The position numbers and the translations under genes were made by a program. 64,000 bases of DNA, taken from positions 2,356,001 through 2,420,000 of the forward strand of contig NZ_JAQNDK010000001.1 in the NCBI RefSeq assembly GCF_028368935.1. Reading direction: 5' to 3'. The notes below the pieces were generated by a model, which did no database searches, had not been told where the DNA came from, and was given only the letters and a program-made list of their open reading frames with translations. Positions 6,014 through 47,312 of the stretch are shown one piece after another (the first letter of the stretch is position 1; the number at the start of each line of letters is the position of its first letter). Source of the stretch: Sorangium aterium. GTDB taxonomy: Bacteria; Myxococcota_A; Polyangia; Polyangiales; Polyangiaceae.

Positions 6014-6069
6014 CGACCGAGAGGCCCGTCAAACCATGCCACCCTACCCGGTGTGGGGGCGTGATCCAC

Positions 6070-6231
6070 ATGACCTCCAGGCGGCTCCGCCGTCGCACCG
6101 ACGGGCCCGGCGGTCGAGAGATTCCCCTGGATCCGGAGCGCCCCAGGATCGTCGTATCAGAGCTGCTGCATCAGTTCGACCCTGACGGTCAGGCCCTGTT
6201 CCTCGTGGAGTTTCACCGCAATACCGGATGA
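6070..6231 (+). CDS. Possible small protein, 53 aa
   Basis: The short frame 56 bp after the activator gene encodes MTSRRLRRRTDGPG... ending IVVSELLHQFDPDGQALFLVEFHRNTG. The second half reads like a folded peptide rather than a random GC-rich frame, but there is no good ribosome site and no recognised family. A GTG at 6061 is an alternative start. Confidence 0.3.
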   Translation: MTSRRLRRRTDGPGGREIPLDPERPRIVVSELLHQFDPDGQALFLVEFHRNTG

Positions 6232-6847
6232 CGCCGATCGTCGCAAAACCGGTTTTCTTCGAGAGTTCGTCGCTTTTCGAGGAGAGTGAACGAATCTGGA
6301 TTCTATCGTCGGACGTACGCGCGCAACGTGGCTGGATCTTGCGCTCTACGAGACAACCAACAGCAGCACGCCAAGGACGCAGCTGGGCGGGCCGGGGAAA
6401 AGCGGACGCGACTTAGAAAAGAGTCTTGACTTTCACCTCCTGTCTGTATGAATATTCTAATCCCCTTTGACGATCCGGACCGTACTCGGCCGGGGGCCGC
6501 AGACGGTTGCAGGATCGTACAGAGGTCGACTCCGGGTGACACTGCCGGGGCTACTTGCTTCTTGCGGCTTCGCGTTCGAGTTGTTCTTGCTTTTTCCGAG
6601 TTGATGCCCGGCCCCGTCACACGGGGTGTTCGCATGTGAGCATCTGTCCGACAAACATCGTGATTGCCAGGCATGTGGTCGGCGCAGGCCCGCGGGCGCA
6701 TCCGTGATCACCGGATCACGAGCACGCTGGCCGGGAATTTTGAACTTTAACCAAGGACTCGGAGGGCTCGCGTCTTCCTCGATGGTTCACAAATCCATTT
6801 CGAGCAGAGGCCGTGACTCCGCCGATCCGATCATGGAGAAATCTTAA
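6232..6847. other. 616-bp leader region upstream of the xylanase gene
   Basis: Less GC-rich than its surroundings and without a convincing gene. TTGACT at 6425 followed by AT-rich TATGAATATTCT (6446-6457) could be a vegetative promoter, though the spacing is not ideal. A promoter plus a long 5' leader for the xylanase gene is the simplest reading. Confidence 0.35.
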
Positions 6848-38743: not shown

Positions 38744-39061
38744 CGGCCCCGGGAGAGGGAGTTCGTGGCGTGGCGGTGCGCGGGGCCCCGCCGAACTCGC
38801 CTGGGACGTCCTCTGTCCGGCGCGCTGCGCACGCCGGACAGAGGACGTCAAATGGGCTCGGACATCGGCCCTTCCCCGCGCACCGCCACGCCACGAACTC
38901 CCTCTCCCGGGGCCTACGGTTGATCGGCTCGGACATCGGCCCTTCCCCGCGCACCGCCACGCCACGAACTCCCTCTCCCGGGGCCGACGGTTGATCGGCT
39001 CAGACATCGGCCCTCCCCCGCGCACCGCCACGCCACGAACTCCCTCTCCCGGGGCCGACGG
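38744..39061. repeat. Palindromic element with three 71-bp direct repeats
   Basis: Three near-identical copies start at 38855, 38926 and 38997 (period 71 bp). Each contains GCGCACCGCCACGCCACGAA and CTCCCTCTCCCGGGGCC. An inverted copy of the same about 42-bp arm lies at 38744-38785. Between the inverted arm and copy 1 is a perfect 18-bp stem with a 9-nt loop (38805-38849). The whole can fold into a long stem-loop. It resembles a small mobile palindromic repeat rather than a gene. It may also stop urt transcription. Confidence 0.8.
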
Positions 39062-39180
39062 TTGTTGTGTTTTGTTCTTGGCGTCCTTGGCGCCTTGGCG
39101 GCTCACTTCTCGCTCGATCAACGTCATCGGTGTCCTGGAAGCGAACGCAGGTGCTGCCCTGGGGGACCCCAACCATCGGT

Positions 39181-39360
39181 TTAACCCGAGATCGCCGTGG
39201 ACCTGGCCGTCTCCTCGAGGTCGCGGAGGTTGGGCACGACGACGGCGGCGAGGTTCCCGCCCAGCTCGCCAGCGCCATGCGTGAGGGCGGAGAGGATGGC
39301 GCGCTCGGGGCGACGGGCCGCCTCGACCGTGTCTGTCGCGCTCGGCACCGCCTGCTGCTC
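39181..39360 (-). pseudogene. Fragment of Rpn/PD-(D/E)XK-type transposase-like gene
   Basis: The frame reads AILSALTHGAGELGGNLAAVV and PNLRDLEETARSTAISG before a stop. It matches, with changes, a fragment found upstream of the second FGE-like gene (41012-41365, reading AVLSALAHGGG in another frame). Neither N-terminus nor catalytic part remains. The family call is from memory of similar myxobacterial Rpn-like proteins. Confidence 0.4.
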
Positions 39361-39459
39361 GGCACGGGCGGGCGCATGTCGAGCGTGCGGCGCAGCAGGG
39401 AACGCGTGGGAGGACGCGCGTCGGTGGACAGCGGGCGCCGAGCGGCAGTAGGACAGGGC

Positions 39460-40773
39460 ATGGAGAAGCGGAAGGGCGCTAGATGGCTGTGGGCGGCGTG
39501 GGCGGTGACGGCAGGCGGATGTGCGCTGGCGGCGGGGCTGGAGGACGGTTATTACGTGCAGAAAGAAGGCAGTGGCGGAACCGGAGCCGAAGCCGGCGCC
39601 GGGGGAGCTGGCAGCGGGAGGGGAGGCGCCGGGGGAGCTGGCAGCGGGAGGGGAGGCGCCGGGGGAGCTGGCAGCGGTATGGAAGGCGCCGGGGGAGCTG
39701 GCGGCGAGGACGAGTGCACGCTGGCCGGACAGCGGTGCGTCGGTCAGACGTGCGTCGATGGGCAGTGCACCGGGGAGTGCGGTCCGGAGGACGTGCGCTG
39801 CTCGGAGGACAATCGCCCGCAGCGGTGCGGAGAGCGCGGGTCGTGGGAGGACGCGGAACCGTGCGGTGCGGCGACGCCCGCATGCGACGCAGGGGAGTGC
39901 GTGCCACGGAGCTGTGTCGGACTGGCCGAGACGTGCGGCCCTGACAGCAACGAGAGCTGCTGCGCGACGGGGGAGGCGGTGTCCGGGGGCACGTTCAACC
40001 GGGGCAACGACGCAGCGTATCCAGCGACGGTGAGCGGGTTCTTGCTGGATCGGTTCGAGGTGACGGTGGGTCGCTTCCGGAAGTTCGTGGAGGCGTATCC
40101 CGGGAGCAAGCCGGCGGCGGGAGCAGGTGCGCACCCGAAGATCGCGGGTAGCGGGTGGAATGCGGATTGGGCGAGCAAGCTGCCTGTGGACACAGCGGAG
40201 CTGAAGGCGGCGGTGAAGTGCGAGTCAGACTTCCAGACGTGGACGGATGCAGCGGGTGATCACGAGCGCCTGCCGATGAGCTGCCTGAGCTGGTACGTGG
40301 CGTTCGCGTTCTGCGCGTGGGATGGGGGCCGTCTGGCGACGGAGGCGGAGTGGAACTACGCGGCGGCGGGAGGAGGAGGCGCGGACGGGCAGCGCGTGTA
40401 TCCATGGTCGAGACCGGCAGACTCGACGGCGATCGATGCCGATCACGCGGTGTATGGCTGCGGGCCTGACGGCAAGTGCACCCCCCCCGGCGACATGCAG
40501 GCCGTCGGGTCGAGGTCGCCGGGAGATGGGAGGTGGGGACAGGCGGACCTGGCCGGGAACCTGCGGGAGTGGGTTCTGGACTGGTACGCGGAGCCGTACC
40601 CATCAGGCGACTGCAAAGATTGCGCCAATATGGCCATGGCCTCGTATCGGGTGATCCGGGGCGGGGGCTGGAACGACGTTGCGTCGACCCTGCTCTCTTC
40701 CGGACGCAACTACGACGACCCGTCGGCCCGCAAAATCGACGTCGGGGCCCGGTGCGCGAGGACACCGCGGTAA
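39460..40773 (+). CDS. FGE/sulfatase-modifying-factor-fold lipoprotein with DGR-like variable C-terminus
   Basis: About 437 residues. A lipoprotein-like start (MEKRKGARWLWAAWAVTAGGC) leads to four GGAGSGRGGA-type linker repeats and a Cys-rich region. The C-terminal formylglycine-generating-enzyme-like domain (about 165-437) has GGTFNRGNDAAYPATVSGFLLDRFEVTVG, LPMSCLSWYVAFAFCAWDGGRLATEAEWNYAAAGG and ADLAGNLREWVLDW (each in parts). The final segment from 40648 reads RVIRGGGWNDVASTLLSSGR, then NYDDPSARKIDVGARCARTP, the position and pattern of variable regions in diversity-generating retroelement targets. Probably a surface ligand-binding protein rather than an enzyme. Confidence 0.88.
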   Translation: MEKRKGARWLWAAWAVTAGGCALAAGLEDGYYVQKEGSGGTGAEAGAGGAGSGRGGAGGAGSGRGGAGGAGSGMEGAGGAGGEDECTLAGQRCVGQTCVDGQCTGECGPEDVRCSEDNRPQRCGERGSWEDAEPCGAATPACDAGECVPRSCVGLAETCGPDSNESCCATGEAVSGGTFNRGNDAAYPATVSGFLLDRFEVTVGRFRKFVEAYPGSKPAAGAGAHPKIAGSGWNADWASKLPVDTAELKAAVKCESDFQTWTDAAGDHERLPMSCLSWYVAFAFCAWDGGRLATEAEWNYAAAGGGGADGQRVYPWSRPADSTAIDADHAVYGCGPDGKCTPPGDMQAVGSRSPGDGRWGQADLAGNLREWVLDWYAEPYPSGDCKDCANMAMASYRVIRGGGWNDVASTLLSSGRNYDDPSARKIDVGARCARTPR

Positions 40774-40862
40774 CATGGCATCAACTTCGCTCAACGCATC
40801 GCTCCCCTTGAAGCTTGATCCTTGAACTCTTGATCAAGCAAGGCTCATCGCCGATGTCGGGC

Positions 40863-40941
40863 GATAGCAGCCGCAACGCAGGGAGCCGGCGATCCGGGGC
40901 TCCGTCCCCGGCCCGGTTGCAGCGCCGGAGATCGCGGTCCG
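40863..40941. repeat. About 80-bp dispersed repeat, copy 1
   Basis: Begins GATAGCAGCCGCAACGCAGG and contains CCCCGGCCCGGTTGCAGCGC. Copy 2 at 41921-42000 marks the point where the second FGE-like gene breaks into avd. Confidence 0.7.
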
Positions 40942-41011
40942 CAGGCTCCCCTGGGCCCGAGCCGGCGCGCCGGCAGGATCGCGTGTCGGGCGGAATCCCC
41001 AGCAGGGGTCC

Positions 41012-41365
41012 TCAGCTCGGCTCGTCGAGCACTTCGGCGAGGGTCTTGGCGCTGAGCACCCGCTCGGCCCACTGCTCGAGCGCTGCGATCTCGGCCCCCT
41101 CGACTCGGGCGATGGCGGCTTCCGGGAGCTCGCCGAAACGAGCGCGGAGCTGCCGCAGGAGCACGGCACGCTCTCCTTCGAGGCGCCTTTCTCTGCGGCC
41201 CTGGTCGCGCCGAATCGCGATGGAGCCTGCCCCTCTCCTCATCGAGGTCGCGGAGGGCGGGCAGCGCTGCGACAGCAATCTGCGTGCCCCGCTCGCCGCC
41301 GCCGTGAGCCAGGGCAGAGAGGACGGACCGCTCGTACTGCCTCGGCGGTGTCCGTCACGCTCGAA
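41012..41365 (-). pseudogene. Decayed Rpn-family gene, DUF4351-like C-terminus
   Basis: The last about 65 residues are intact: EGERAVLLRQLRARFGELPE, then AAIARVEGAEIAALEQWAER and VLSAKTLAEVLDEPS. This is the DUF4351-like tail of Rpn/PD-(D/E)XK transposase-like proteins. Upstream, in another frame, AVLSALAHGGGERGTQIAVA is recognisable, so the gene has a frameshift and an internal deletion and lacks its N-terminus. Confidence 0.55.
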
Positions 41366-41482
41366 ACCGCCTGCCGCCCCAGCACGGGTGTGCGCGGGTC
41401 GAGCGTGCGGCGACGCAGCAGGGCAAGAGGTGGAGGACGGGCGTGGGTGGACAGCGGAAGCGTGTCGGCAGTGGGACAAGGC

Positions 41483-41920
41483 ATGGAGAAGCGGACGGGC
41501 GCGAGATGGCTGTGGGCGGGATGGGCGCTGACGGCGGGCGGATGCGGGTGGGTGGCGGGGCTGGAGCCCAGCTACCAGGTGGTGGAAGCGGGCAGCGGTG
41601 GCAGTGGAGGGGCAGCGAGCGCCGGCGGGGAGGCAGGCAGCGCGGGAGGGGGCGGGAGCGGAGGCGAGGGCGGGAGCGTGGAGTGCACGCCCGAGGGAAG
41701 GGAATGCGAGGAGCAGACGTGCGTGGTTGGGAAGTGCACGGGGGAGTGCGGGCCGGAGCAGGTGCGGTGTACGGACAACCGGCCGCAGCACTGCGATGAG
41801 GTTGGGCGATGGAGGGACGCGGCGCCGTGTGGAGCTGCAGCGCCGGTGTGCCGCGGAGGGACGTGCGTGACGCCGCCGAGCTGTGTCGGACTGGCCGAGA
41901 CGTGCGGCCCTGACAGCAAC
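41483..41920 (+). pseudogene. Truncated FGE-fold lipoprotein gene, N-terminus only
   Basis: MEKRTGARWLWAGWALTAGGC, a Gly/Ser linker and the Cys-rich region match the 39460 gene almost residue for residue up to SCVGLAETCGPDSN. At 41920 the match stops at a dispersed repeat, and the whole FGE-like core is missing. The open frame continues directly into avd sequence. Confidence 0.8.
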
Positions 41921-42000
41921 GATGGCAGTCGGAACGCGGGAAGCCGGGGGTCCGGGGGCGGAGCCCGCGGCCCGGCTGCAGCGCCGGTGATCGCCGTCCG
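41921..42000. repeat. About 80-bp dispersed repeat, copy 2
   Basis: Begins GATGGCAGTCGGAACGCGGG and contains GCCCGGCTGCAGCGCCGG. It pairs with copy 1 at 40863-40941 and sits at the junction between the broken FGE gene and avd. Confidence 0.7.
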
Positions 42001-42001
42001 G

Positions 42002-42300
42002 ATGGAATCGCTGCTCGCCTGGGTGGCCGAGCGGGTCGCCAAGTTCCCTCGCGACATCGCTTCACCGTCAGCGACCGCCTTCTCCATGCCTGCCTCGACG
42101 TCACCGAGCACCTCGTCGAGGCCTCCTCCCTTCGCGACAAGCGCGCCGACCTCACCGCCGCCTCGCGCGGCCTGGTCCGCGCCCGCGTGCTCATGCGGCT
42201 CGCCCACACCCTCCGCTGCGTCTCCGAGGCCCAGCGCCTCCACTTCGCCCAGGAGAGCGACGAGGTCGGCAGGATGCTCGGCGGCTGGCTCTGCACGGCC
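42002..42300 (+). pseudogene. avd: avd, accessory protein of diversity-generating retroelement (frameshifted)
   Basis: The first frame reads MESLLAWVAERVAKFPRD. One base appears lost near 42055; in the next frame the sequence continues RFTVSDRLLHACLDVTEHLV, RDKRADLTAASRGLVRARVL and ESDEVGRMLGGWL. This is the four-helix-bundle Avd family, including its end motif GRMLGGWL. Avd binds the DGR reverse transcriptase and is needed for mutagenic copying. The frameshift could be decay or a sequencing error. No stop separates avd from the repeat that follows. Confidence 0.8.
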
Positions 42301-42340
42301 CACCCGCGCGAAGCTCCCCCCGTCCGGCGCCCGTACGGGC

Positions 42341-42490
42341 CGGACGGCGTCGCGAGGGACGCCTCGGACCGGGTGATCCGCGGCGGGAGCTTCAACAACG
42401 ATGCGTCTTCCCTGCTCTCCTCCACGCGCAACGACGACGACCCGTCGGACCGCGACAATGACGTCGGGGCCCGGTGCGCGAAGACGATGA
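42341..42490 (+). repeat. Template- or variable-repeat-like sequence of a DGR
   Basis: From 42370 the sequence reads RVIRGGSFNNDASSLLSSTR then NDDDPSDRDNDVGARCAKT. It aligns without gaps to 40648-40770. The 22 bases at 42460-42481 are identical to 40738-40759 at the same offset, as expected for an IMH-type 3' anchor. It has many AAC/GAC/AAT codons, as DGR templates do, and lies just after avd, the usual place of a template repeat. It could instead be the leftover C-terminus of the broken FGE gene. Confidence 0.65.
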
Positions 42491-42782
42491 CCTTCCCCCT
42501 CGCGAGGACACCCGGAGCCGGTGCGATCACGGTCGCGCCGGGCGTGGTGCTCCACGCGTGGTGCTCCACAGTCCACCCTCGCGGCGCCGCGCCCCTCGGG
42601 GCGCGAAGAGCGCCCGCGGCGCCCGCCGCGGGCTCCCCCGGGCCGAGCCGGCGCGGGTGCAGGCGCAACCGCACCGCCTCCCCCCGCGCCCCACGCGGCG
42701 CGCTGCCTCCCGGGTTCGTCACCGGCGGACAGCGGCCCTCCGTCCCCTTGACGCCGCCCACCCGGCGCGTGAGCCTCGGCTC

Positions 42783-44378: not shown

Positions 44379-44650
44379 GCTGCACCTCCGCGGCAGCGCC
44401 GGCTCGCGTCCTGCGCGCCGAGCTCCGCGTCCACGGCAACACCGTGCGCGCCCTGGGCGCCCAGCGCCACCTCCTCTTGCCCCCGAGCGGTTCGAGCGCC
44501 GTCGTGAAGAGCACGGCACGGCGCCCCGTTCCCCTCTCCTTCCTCCCCTTCCCCGCCTTCCCACCTCGCCGCCTTCGTGCTCCAATCCGCCCGCCCACCG
44601 CGCCAGTGCCCGCGTTTCCCGCTCTCTCCTCACCTGCCGAGTGCCAGCGC

Positions 44651-45715
44651 ATGACCCCTTGTCTCCGCCGCTCCGCCCCTCTCCTAGCCGCCCTCGGCGT
44701 GCTCTCCCTCTCGGCTCCTGCGGCGGCGCAGGACATCGCTGCCGCCGAGGCGCTCTTCGAACGGGGGCTCGCCGACATGCAGGCAGGCCGTTACGAGACG
44801 GGCTGCAAGGCCCTCGCCGAGAGCGAGCGCATCGACCCTCAGCCCGGCACGCTCTTCACGCTGGCGTCCTGCGAGGCCCAGTGGGGCCGCATCGCCACGG
44901 CGGTCGCGCGCTTCAAGGACTACCTGGCGCGTTTCGATCGGATGACGCCGGCCGAGCAGGCCCGCCAGGGCGAGCGGCCGAAGCTCGCGATGAAGGAGCG
45001 CGATCGGCTCTCGCCCCGGATCCCGAGGCTCGCGCTCTCCTTGCCGCCGGGGGCGCCGGCGGGCACCGTGGTCCAGCGCGACGGCTCCGTGCTGGGCGAG
45101 GCCGCGCTGGGCGTCGCGCTGCCGGTCGACCCGGGAGATCACCGGGTGTCGATCCAGGCGCCGGGAGAGCCCGTGCGGGAACAACACGTCACGATCGCGG
45201 CGGGCGAGACGAAAGAGCTCACGCTGGCGCTGAAGGACGCGCCGGCCGCCCGAGCCCCCGCGCCGCATCCGGCGTCCCCGACGCCCGCCATCGTGCCGGC
45301 GCCTGCACCGGCCCCGCCGGATGCGCCGGAGGCGCCCGCAGGCCGTCGAACGGCCCTCTACCTGGCGGGCGGGCTCGGCGCGGCGGGCTTCGTGCTGGGC
45401 GGCATCACCGGCGGGCTCGTGCTCGACAAGAAAGGCACCATCGACGAGCACTGCGGCAGCGGCATCCAGGCCACGGACCCGAAGGCCTGCGACACGACAG
45501 GGCGCGACGCCGGGGACAGCGCGAACACGCTGGCCACGGTGAGCACCATCGGGTTCGCGGTGGGCCTGGCCGGGGCCGGGACGGCGCTCGTCCTTTATCT
45601 CACCGAGCCGAAGACCGCGGCGCGGGCGGCCAGCGCGAGCCCGAGGTGGATCAGCGCGGGCGTGCTGGAGGCAAGGCCAGAGGGGGCCGTGTTCGGCGCG
45701 CGAGGGCGCTTCTGA
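44651..45715 (+). CDS. Exported PEGA/TPR-like protein
   Basis: 354 residues. A signal peptide (LLAALGVLSLSAPAAAQ) precedes TPR-like helices (AAEALFERGLADMQAGRYETG, CKALAESERIDPQPGTLFTL). A PEGA-like segment (GTVVQRDGSVLGEAALGVAL, PVDPGDHRVSIQAPGEP), a Pro/Ala linker and two C-terminal membrane helices follow. Same domain order as the protein at 27978-29111. Confidence 0.82.
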   Translation: MTPCLRRSAPLLAALGVLSLSAPAAAQDIAAAEALFERGLADMQAGRYETGCKALAESERIDPQPGTLFTLASCEAQWGRIATAVARFKDYLARFDRMTPAEQARQGERPKLAMKERDRLSPRIPRLALSLPPGAPAGTVVQRDGSVLGEAALGVALPVDPGDHRVSIQAPGEPVREQHVTIAAGETKELTLALKDAPAARAPAPHPASPTPAIVPAPAPAPPDAPEAPAGRRTALYLAGGLGAAGFVLGGITGGLVLDKKGTIDEHCGSGIQATDPKACDTTGRDAGDSANTLATVSTIGFAVGLAGAGTALVLYLTEPKTAARAASASPRWISAGVLEARPEGAVFGARGRF

Positions 45716-46097: not shown

Positions 46098-47312
46098 ATG
46101 AAGAGCAAGCGCACGCGTCGGTGGTGGTGGGCGGCATCGGCCTTCATGGCGAGCGGTTGCACGGCGATACTGGGGCTGGACAAGGACTATCACCCGTTCG
46201 AAGGCGCAGGCGGCGACGCCGTCTCCGGCGGAGGCGACGCAAGCTCGGGCCGCGGCGGCGCCGGCAATGGCAGCGGCGCCGGCAACGGCAGCGGCGGCGG
46301 CGCCGGCGAGTGCACGCGCGGCGACGCGCGGTGCTCGGACAACTGGCTAGAGCGGTGCAACGACCGCGATCAGTGGGACGCCCCGGAGCCGTGTCCTGCG
46401 GAGGCGCCCGTGTGCAGCGGAGGGGCGTGCACGACGCCTCCGAGCTGCGAAGGGCTGCCATCGACGTGCGGGCCGGGTGAAAGCGAGAGCTGCTGCGCGA
46501 GCGCGGTGGTGCCCGGGGGGACCTTCGACCGCGGCAACGATGCTGCATATCCAGCGACGGTGAGCGACTTCCGGCTGGATCGCTTCGAGGTGACGGTGGG
46601 GAGGTTCCGGAAGTTCTTGGAGGCGTACCCCGGCAGCCAGCCCGCGGCCGACGCGGGAGCGCACCCGGGCATCCAGGGGAGCGGGTGGAACCCGGCCTGG
46701 AACAGCGAGCTGCCCCCGGACGCGGCGGCGCTGAGAGCAGCGGTGATGTGCAATCCGGACAACGCGGACATGCGGACGTGGACGGAGGAGGCGGGCGCCC
46801 ATGAGCACCTGCCGATGAACTGCGTGAGCTGGTATGTCGCCTTCGCGTTCTGCGCGTGGGACGGGGGCCGGTTCCCGACAGAAGCGGAGTGGAACTACGC
46901 GGCGGCCGGCGGGGACGAGCAGCGGCAGTATCCGTGGTCGAATCCGCCGGAGTCGACGACCATCGACGCGAGCTACGCCTCCTACGATTGCAGGGAGAGC
47001 ACGGCGCCCGGCTGCACATTCCAGAGCGACTTCAGCGACATCGTGCACGTCGGGTCCCGCTCGCCGAAGGGCGACGGGCGGTGGACGCAGGCGGATCTCG
47101 GCGGGAGCATGCGGGAGTGGATGCTGGATGGGTACGGGACCTATCCGGCGGAATGCGTCGACTGCGCCAACCTGACGGACACCTCGAACCGGGTGGTCCG
47201 CGGCGGGAGCAGCTTCGGCACAGCGAGCTATCTGCTGACGTCCGAGCGGGTCAGCGTCGCGCCGTCGGCGCCCTATTACAGCCTCGGCGTGCGGTGCGCG
47301 AGGACGCCGTAG
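46098..47312 (+). CDS. FGE-fold lipoprotein, third paralogue
   Basis: About 404 residues, start behind AGAGGAGAT. Lipobox MASGCT, a short Gly/Asn linker, a Cys-rich region, then the FGE-like domain: GGTFDRGNDAAYPATVSDFR, HLPMNCVSWYVAFAFCAWDG, EAEWNYAAAGG and LGGSMREWMLDGY. The C-terminus from 47190 reads RVVRGGSSFGTASYLLTSER then VSVAPSAPYYSLGVRCARTP. It keeps the frame residues of the other two copies but differs at nearly every putative variable position. Confidence 0.87.
   Translation: MKSKRTRRWWWAASAFMASGCTAILGLDKDYHPFEGAGGDAVSGGGDASSGRGGAGNGSGAGNGSGGGAGECTRGDARCSDNWLERCNDRDQWDAPEPCPAEAPVCSGGACTTPPSCEGLPSTCGPGESESCCASAVVPGGTFDRGNDAAYPATVSDFRLDRFEVTVGRFRKFLEAYPGSQPAADAGAHPGIQGSGWNPAWNSELPPDAAALRAAVMCNPDNADMRTWTEEAGAHEHLPMNCVSWYVAFAFCAWDGGRFPTEAEWNYAAAGGDEQRQYPWSNPPESTTIDASYASYDCRESTAPGCTFQSDFSDIVHVGSRSPKGDGRWTQADLGGSMREWMLDGYGTYPAECVDCANLTDTSNRVVRGGSSFGTASYLLTSERVSVAPSAPYYSLGVRCARTP

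Follow-up and report, generated by a model that had tools for sequence, protein, structure and literature searches.

A probable remnant of a diversity-generating retroelement beside an FGE-fold lipoprotein gene in Sorangium aterium

A locus in the Sorangium aterium genome very probably represents what remains of a chromosomal diversity-generating retroelement (DGR) with the order target (an FGE lipoprotein), avd, template repeat (TR) and reverse transcriptase (RT), which is now dead and whose former target is fixed. It lies in a stretch of 64,000 nucleotides, referred to here as the window (contig NZ_JAQNDK010000001.1, positions 2,356,001 to 2,420,000), and its features are listed in Table 1. 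All of its parts except the RT are homologous to those of RT-bearing DGRs, the RT is absent, and several of the surviving parts carry lesions. The locus thus lacks the RT, the intact Avd and the adenine-specific mismatches of an intact DGR, and it possesses the orthologous block and the pair of TR and variable region (VR) of a degenerate one. The original prediction had proposed a DGR remnant, either dead or served by an RT elsewhere. Its core finds support in 675 bp of orthology to RT-bearing DGRs that ends where the RT begins, and the option of a dead element is favoured by the lack of a DGR-type RT in the genome and by the damage to avd, to FGE2 and to the TR.

In its live stage, a DGR RT acting with Avd would have reverse-transcribed the TR RNA with errors at adenines, and the resulting cDNA would have overwritten the 3ʹ end (the VR) of the FGE lipoprotein gene to vary its ligand-binding face. 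The target gene would have been tandemly duplicated in this lineage, with one copy losing its FGE domain and VR. The RT would have been deleted at about position 42651, avd would have lost its frame and stop codon, and the TR and VR would have drifted apart afterwards, with FGE1 staying as a fixed gene. We infer this order of events, as well as past mutagenic homing into FGE1 and the present fixation of FGE1 itself.

C-type-lectin proteins of the FGE type are established DGR targets (PMC6328139), and the adenine bias of these elements is near universal, with at least 75% of TR/VR mismatches located at A in nearly all DGRs (Roux 2021, PMC8144416). ‘Degenerate’ DGR loci, whose machinery is missing or broken, are known from Thiohalocapsa PB-PSB1 (PMC10907252). 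Because such loci have already been described, the Sorangium locus represents an instance rather than a new kind. As in Thiohalocapsa PB-PSB1, its machinery is missing or pseudogenised. However, each class of locus in that bacterium has one complete representative in the genome, so diversification in trans is possible there (PMC10907252), whereas no complete locus was found in the S. aterium genome. The Sorangium locus is very probably a clear case of DGR death, in which the variable protein is frozen, the template is losing adenines and the helper gene is breaking. The genus is also suited to testing whether the former targets of DGRs turn into ordinary fixed receptors, because five other Sorangium genomes contain neither a recognisable Avd nor a confident DGR RT, yet each carries about 12-28 FGE1-like matches.

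Table 1. Features of the Sorangium locus, in window coordinates.
Feature	Position	Strand	State or evidence
FGE1, lipoprotein with C-terminal FGE/C-type-lectin-like domain, probable former DGR target	39460..40773	+	intact, 437 aa
VR of FGE1	40639..40763	+	gapless 83% match to TR, E 4e-31
22-bp 3ʹ anchor in VR	40739..40760	+	identical to 42461-42482
FGE2, N-terminal part of second target lipoprotein, truncated by deletion of FGE domain and VR	41484..41920	+	tandem duplicate of FGE1
avd pseudogene, frameshift ~42050-42059, stop codon lost	42002..42300	+	NF033474, bAvd, alignment to L169, frame analysis
Decayed TR	42361..42485	+	orthologous, flanks included, to TRs of L169 and G024
22-bp 3ʹ anchor in TR	42461..42482	+	identical to VR anchor
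Conserved spacer 3ʹ of TR, homology end, RT absent	42486..42651	+	blastn versus L169, three-way alignment with G024
FGE3, paralogous lipoprotein, VR fixed between Sorangium species	46098..47312	+	So0157-2 orthologue

Homology to RT-bearing elements

Orthology to the avd, TR and spacer of RT-bearing DGRs is stronger support for a remnant than the TR/VR pair. Window positions 41977-42651 align by blastn with positions 6040-6710 of locus L169 (PLNW01000119.1, from the Myxococcales MAG fen_1158) at 71% identity over 686 nt (E 4e-90), and the 675 bp involved span the avd leader, avd, the spacer, the TR and ~166 nt past the TR. The same span matches a second relative, G024:C56, which belongs to the same family as S. 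aterium, at 66% (E 8e-50), and a three-way alignment reveals blocks 3ʹ of the TR that are common to all three loci. Homology to both relatives breaks off shortly before their RT gene, which is encoded on the other strand (6777-7793 in L169; 985-2058 in G024) with its 3ʹ end near the point where homology ends. L169 shares the order FGE-avd-TR and a homologous FGE target with the Sorangium locus, but differs in having a DGR RT and a TR with 35 adenines rather than 22. In addition, positions 40805-40833 downstream of FGE1 resemble the interval between FGE and avd in L169 (86%), which fits an ancestral FGE-avd-TR-RT order.

The FGE gene nearest to the L169 TR (L169:6425-6550) is not a close match to it, and FGE genes whose VRs match closely reside on other contigs of the fen MAGs. 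Among loci L159-L181, a script found no local A-specific repeat pairs. The FGE genes L162, L163, L172, L174 and L175, from other fen Myxococcales MAGs, match the L169 TR at most non-adenine sites: L172 exhibits 21 A-site and 3 other differences, and L163 and L175 each exhibit 9 other differences. From these matches, many dispersed targets across the fen genomes appear to be, or to have once been, served by a single TR class.

An Avd match was found in 16 of the 108 genomes of the family. Loci L102-L119 (e.g. L109, G040:C116) have the arrangement of FGE target, avd and TR that is found in the Sorangium locus. They differ in that most retain a DGR RT, with an LTSQ motif, and in that their TR/VR differences are A-specific: the fourteen fetched neighbourhoods with TR/VR pairs total 259 A-site versus 8 other mismatches, counts that illustrate a live pair only and are not an unbiased estimate, because the pairs were picked by a script seeking A-site mismatches. 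In L103 (G006:C313), a single TR pairs with two VRs, one on each strand of the contig, and differs from them at A sites only (19/19 and 23/23).

The target lipoprotein and its template

The original prediction of an FGE-fold lipoprotein is borne out by a profile search, in which FGE1 matches Pfam FGE-sulfatase (E 6e-34); a lipobox, TAGGC, can also be read from its sequence. The AlphaFold model of FGE1 is of moderate confidence only (pLDDT 65). A fold search with this model ranked FGE enzymes first and included TvpA of Treponema denticola (PDB 2y3c, E 9e-11) among the matches, and a profile search also retrieved 2y3c. TvpA, which is part of a DGR whose machinery is present, is an FGE-type C-type-lectin-fold variable protein like FGE1, but the two have low sequence identity (20%).

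The VR comprises the last 125 nt of FGE1 ahead of the final codons. Its gapless likeness to the copy following avd was confirmed, as was the identical 3ʹ anchor, GACGTCGGGGCCCGGTGCGCGA, which occurs at equal offset in VR and TR. When the whole genome was searched with the TR, the FGE1 VR was the sole strong match, and the runner-up (E 2e-6) lay in the FGE paralogue located at 46.1-47.3 kb. The FGE1 VR also aligns with the TR of the RT-bearing L169 (69.6%, E 3e-10).

The TR begins ~60 nt 3ʹ of the frameshifted avd and contains 22 adenines, compared with 33 and 35 in the two closest intact TRs. It differs from the VR at 22 sites, 7 of them at a template A and 15 elsewhere (among 22 A and 100 other positions). 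Adenine-directed differences had been predicted, and some do fall at template A, but the direct TR/VR pair does not show A-specificity. We tried, and do not rely on, an enrichment of differences at columns that are A in the family (10/20 versus 12/100; p 3.5e-4, the best of six thresholds, with p 0.0015-0.0085 for the others), because differences at template-A columns are present between ordinary FGE paralogues too, with similar values, which makes enrichment there non-diagnostic.

Ancestral bases could be polarised by using the TRs of L169 and G024 as outgroups. The VR has changed at 14 of 29 ancestral A versus 8 of 70 other sites (p 1.5e-4), columns at which ordinary FGE paralogues differ as well; where the TR keeps the ancestral base, the VR has changed at 7/20 A versus 4/63 others (p 0.003), a comparison subject to the same confound. 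With that confound applying, these polarised changes would fit TR-to-VR copying followed by drift. In the TR itself, changes affect 9 of the 29 ancestral A compared with 7 of the 70 remaining sites (p 0.013), and five losses of an ancestral A are common to TR and VR. It is conceivable, though unlikely, that the TR was rewritten before the element died, with mutagenic homing or VR-to-TR conversion consuming its adenines and disarming the element before the RT was lost. Adenine loss through GC-biased drift offers a simpler account.

The TR-like copy might instead be no more than the surviving C-terminal end of an FGE paralogue that has decayed, moved beside an unrelated Avd-like gene by a rearrangement. 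Its peptide is recognisably FGE-like, the neighbourhood contains many FGE duplications, and ordinary FGE paralogues differ at the ‘A columns’ too. However, homology to L169 and G024 is continuous from avd through the spacer and TR to ~166 nt beyond, the flanks are not FGE sequence, and this collinear 675-bp orthology contradicts such an origin. Moreover, the TR retains the final AAG found in TRs, whereas the VR has AGG, as is also observed for several pairs among L102-L119. We consider an origin from a decayed paralogue extremely improbable.

Loss of the reverse transcriptase and decay of avd

As originally predicted, no RT follows avd: no RT remnant was found after the TR and spacer in the window, where a protein kinase gene starts at ~42.8 kb, downstream of the spacer. 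Searches of the 13.5-Mb genome with RVT_1 and with a DGR-RT profile likewise yielded no DGR-type RT, only group II intron or retron-like RTs. RVT_1 has nine matches, and those read carry TPQG or SPQGG (group II intron) or LPQGAxTSP (retron-like) motifs; L002 was read in part, the ninth match is a fragment of 65 residues, and neither scores as a DGR RT. A profile built from eight DGR RTs detected no new locus in the genome, its best score being 97 bits, compared with >450 bits for most complete DGR RTs of the family. The RT at C1:2314513, 41 kb before the start of the window, is promising in position but was rejected as group II intron-like on account of its TPQG motif. Group II intron-like RTs occur at several sites in the genome (G000:C5:545-547 kb, C2:2146 kb and C1:3997 kb); the stretches read of L001, L004 and L005 are identical, and two of these copies adjoin at C5.

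These searches leave unsupported the option that the element is alive and served in trans by an RT elsewhere in the cell, which we regard as very unlikely. In its favour, the FGE1 gene is intact, and DGR machinery has been proposed to act in trans in another bacterium (PMC10907252). Nevertheless, the assembly contains no suitable enzyme, the other five Sorangium genomes have neither Avd nor a confident DGR RT (G103 has a weak match, E 4e-31, within the score range of other RT classes), the TR and VR have drifted at 15 non-A sites, and the VR of FGE3 is fixed.

The predicted frameshifted avd upstream of the template copy was recovered by both profiles and by frame analysis. It matches NCBIfam DivGenRetAVD (NF033474) with E 3e-19 and an X placed at the frameshift, although its 69 bits are below the curated cut-off of 80, and it matches Pfam bAvd above the cut-off (E 8e-13). 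The second frame offers no start from which the whole protein could be translated and stays open, without a stop, through the TR; no intact Avd is encoded. Beyond the frameshift, changes relative to L169 number 37, 17 and 17 at codon positions 3, 1 and 2, respectively; this mostly third-position pattern suggests that coding constraint acted on avd through most of its past and that the break came late. The frameshift, of one base and seen in one assembly, is thus recent, or could be a sequencing error. In L169, too, avd reads with a change of frame close to the corresponding codon (L169:6100-6125, versus 42050-42059 in the window), but there the shift is an extra C in a C run and runs in the opposite direction, which makes a shared programmed frameshift unlikely.

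That the shift is a single base, and that avd beyond it shows coding constraint, could also suggest a living DGR whose avd frameshift and missing RT are both assembly artefacts. This would leave unexplained why avd has lost its stop, why FGE2 is truncated, why the TR is poor in adenines and why TR and VR have drifted at non-A sites, and we give it almost no credence.

FGE paralogues and neighbourhood

The duplication that gave rise to FGE1 and FGE2 can be traced between positions 39186-39990 and 41210-41959 (69%) and in the intergenic sequences 40862-40941 and 41920-42000 (80%). FGE2 is cut after ‘...TCGPDSND’, and the deletion reaches into an intergenic repeat, which is present after FGE1 too.

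Comparison of VRs between species covers the paralogue FGE3. Its VR is 90.8% identical to that of the orthologue in Sorangium cellulosum So0157-2 (NC_021658), with 93.1% for the rest of the domain, and the corresponding values for So ce26 (NZ_CP012673) are 78.3% and 84.9%. The FGE3 VR is thus about as conserved as the rest of its domain and is not hypervariable. The original prediction was to be abandoned if the genome lacked a DGR RT and the VRs were fixed. The first holds throughout the genome and the second for FGE3 only, and together they refute activity of the element rather than its descent from a DGR.

FGE1-like genes are found near a PknB-type kinase gene at Sorangium loci L190, L194, L195, L196, L197, L199, L200 and L201. 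At L190 and L194, the FGE1-like gene and the kinase gene are separated by a homologue of window positions 44650-45715. Upstream of FGE1, positions 38852-39064 comprise three tandem 71-bp repeats (94-97%), and an inverted 42-bp copy is present further upstream at 38744-38785.
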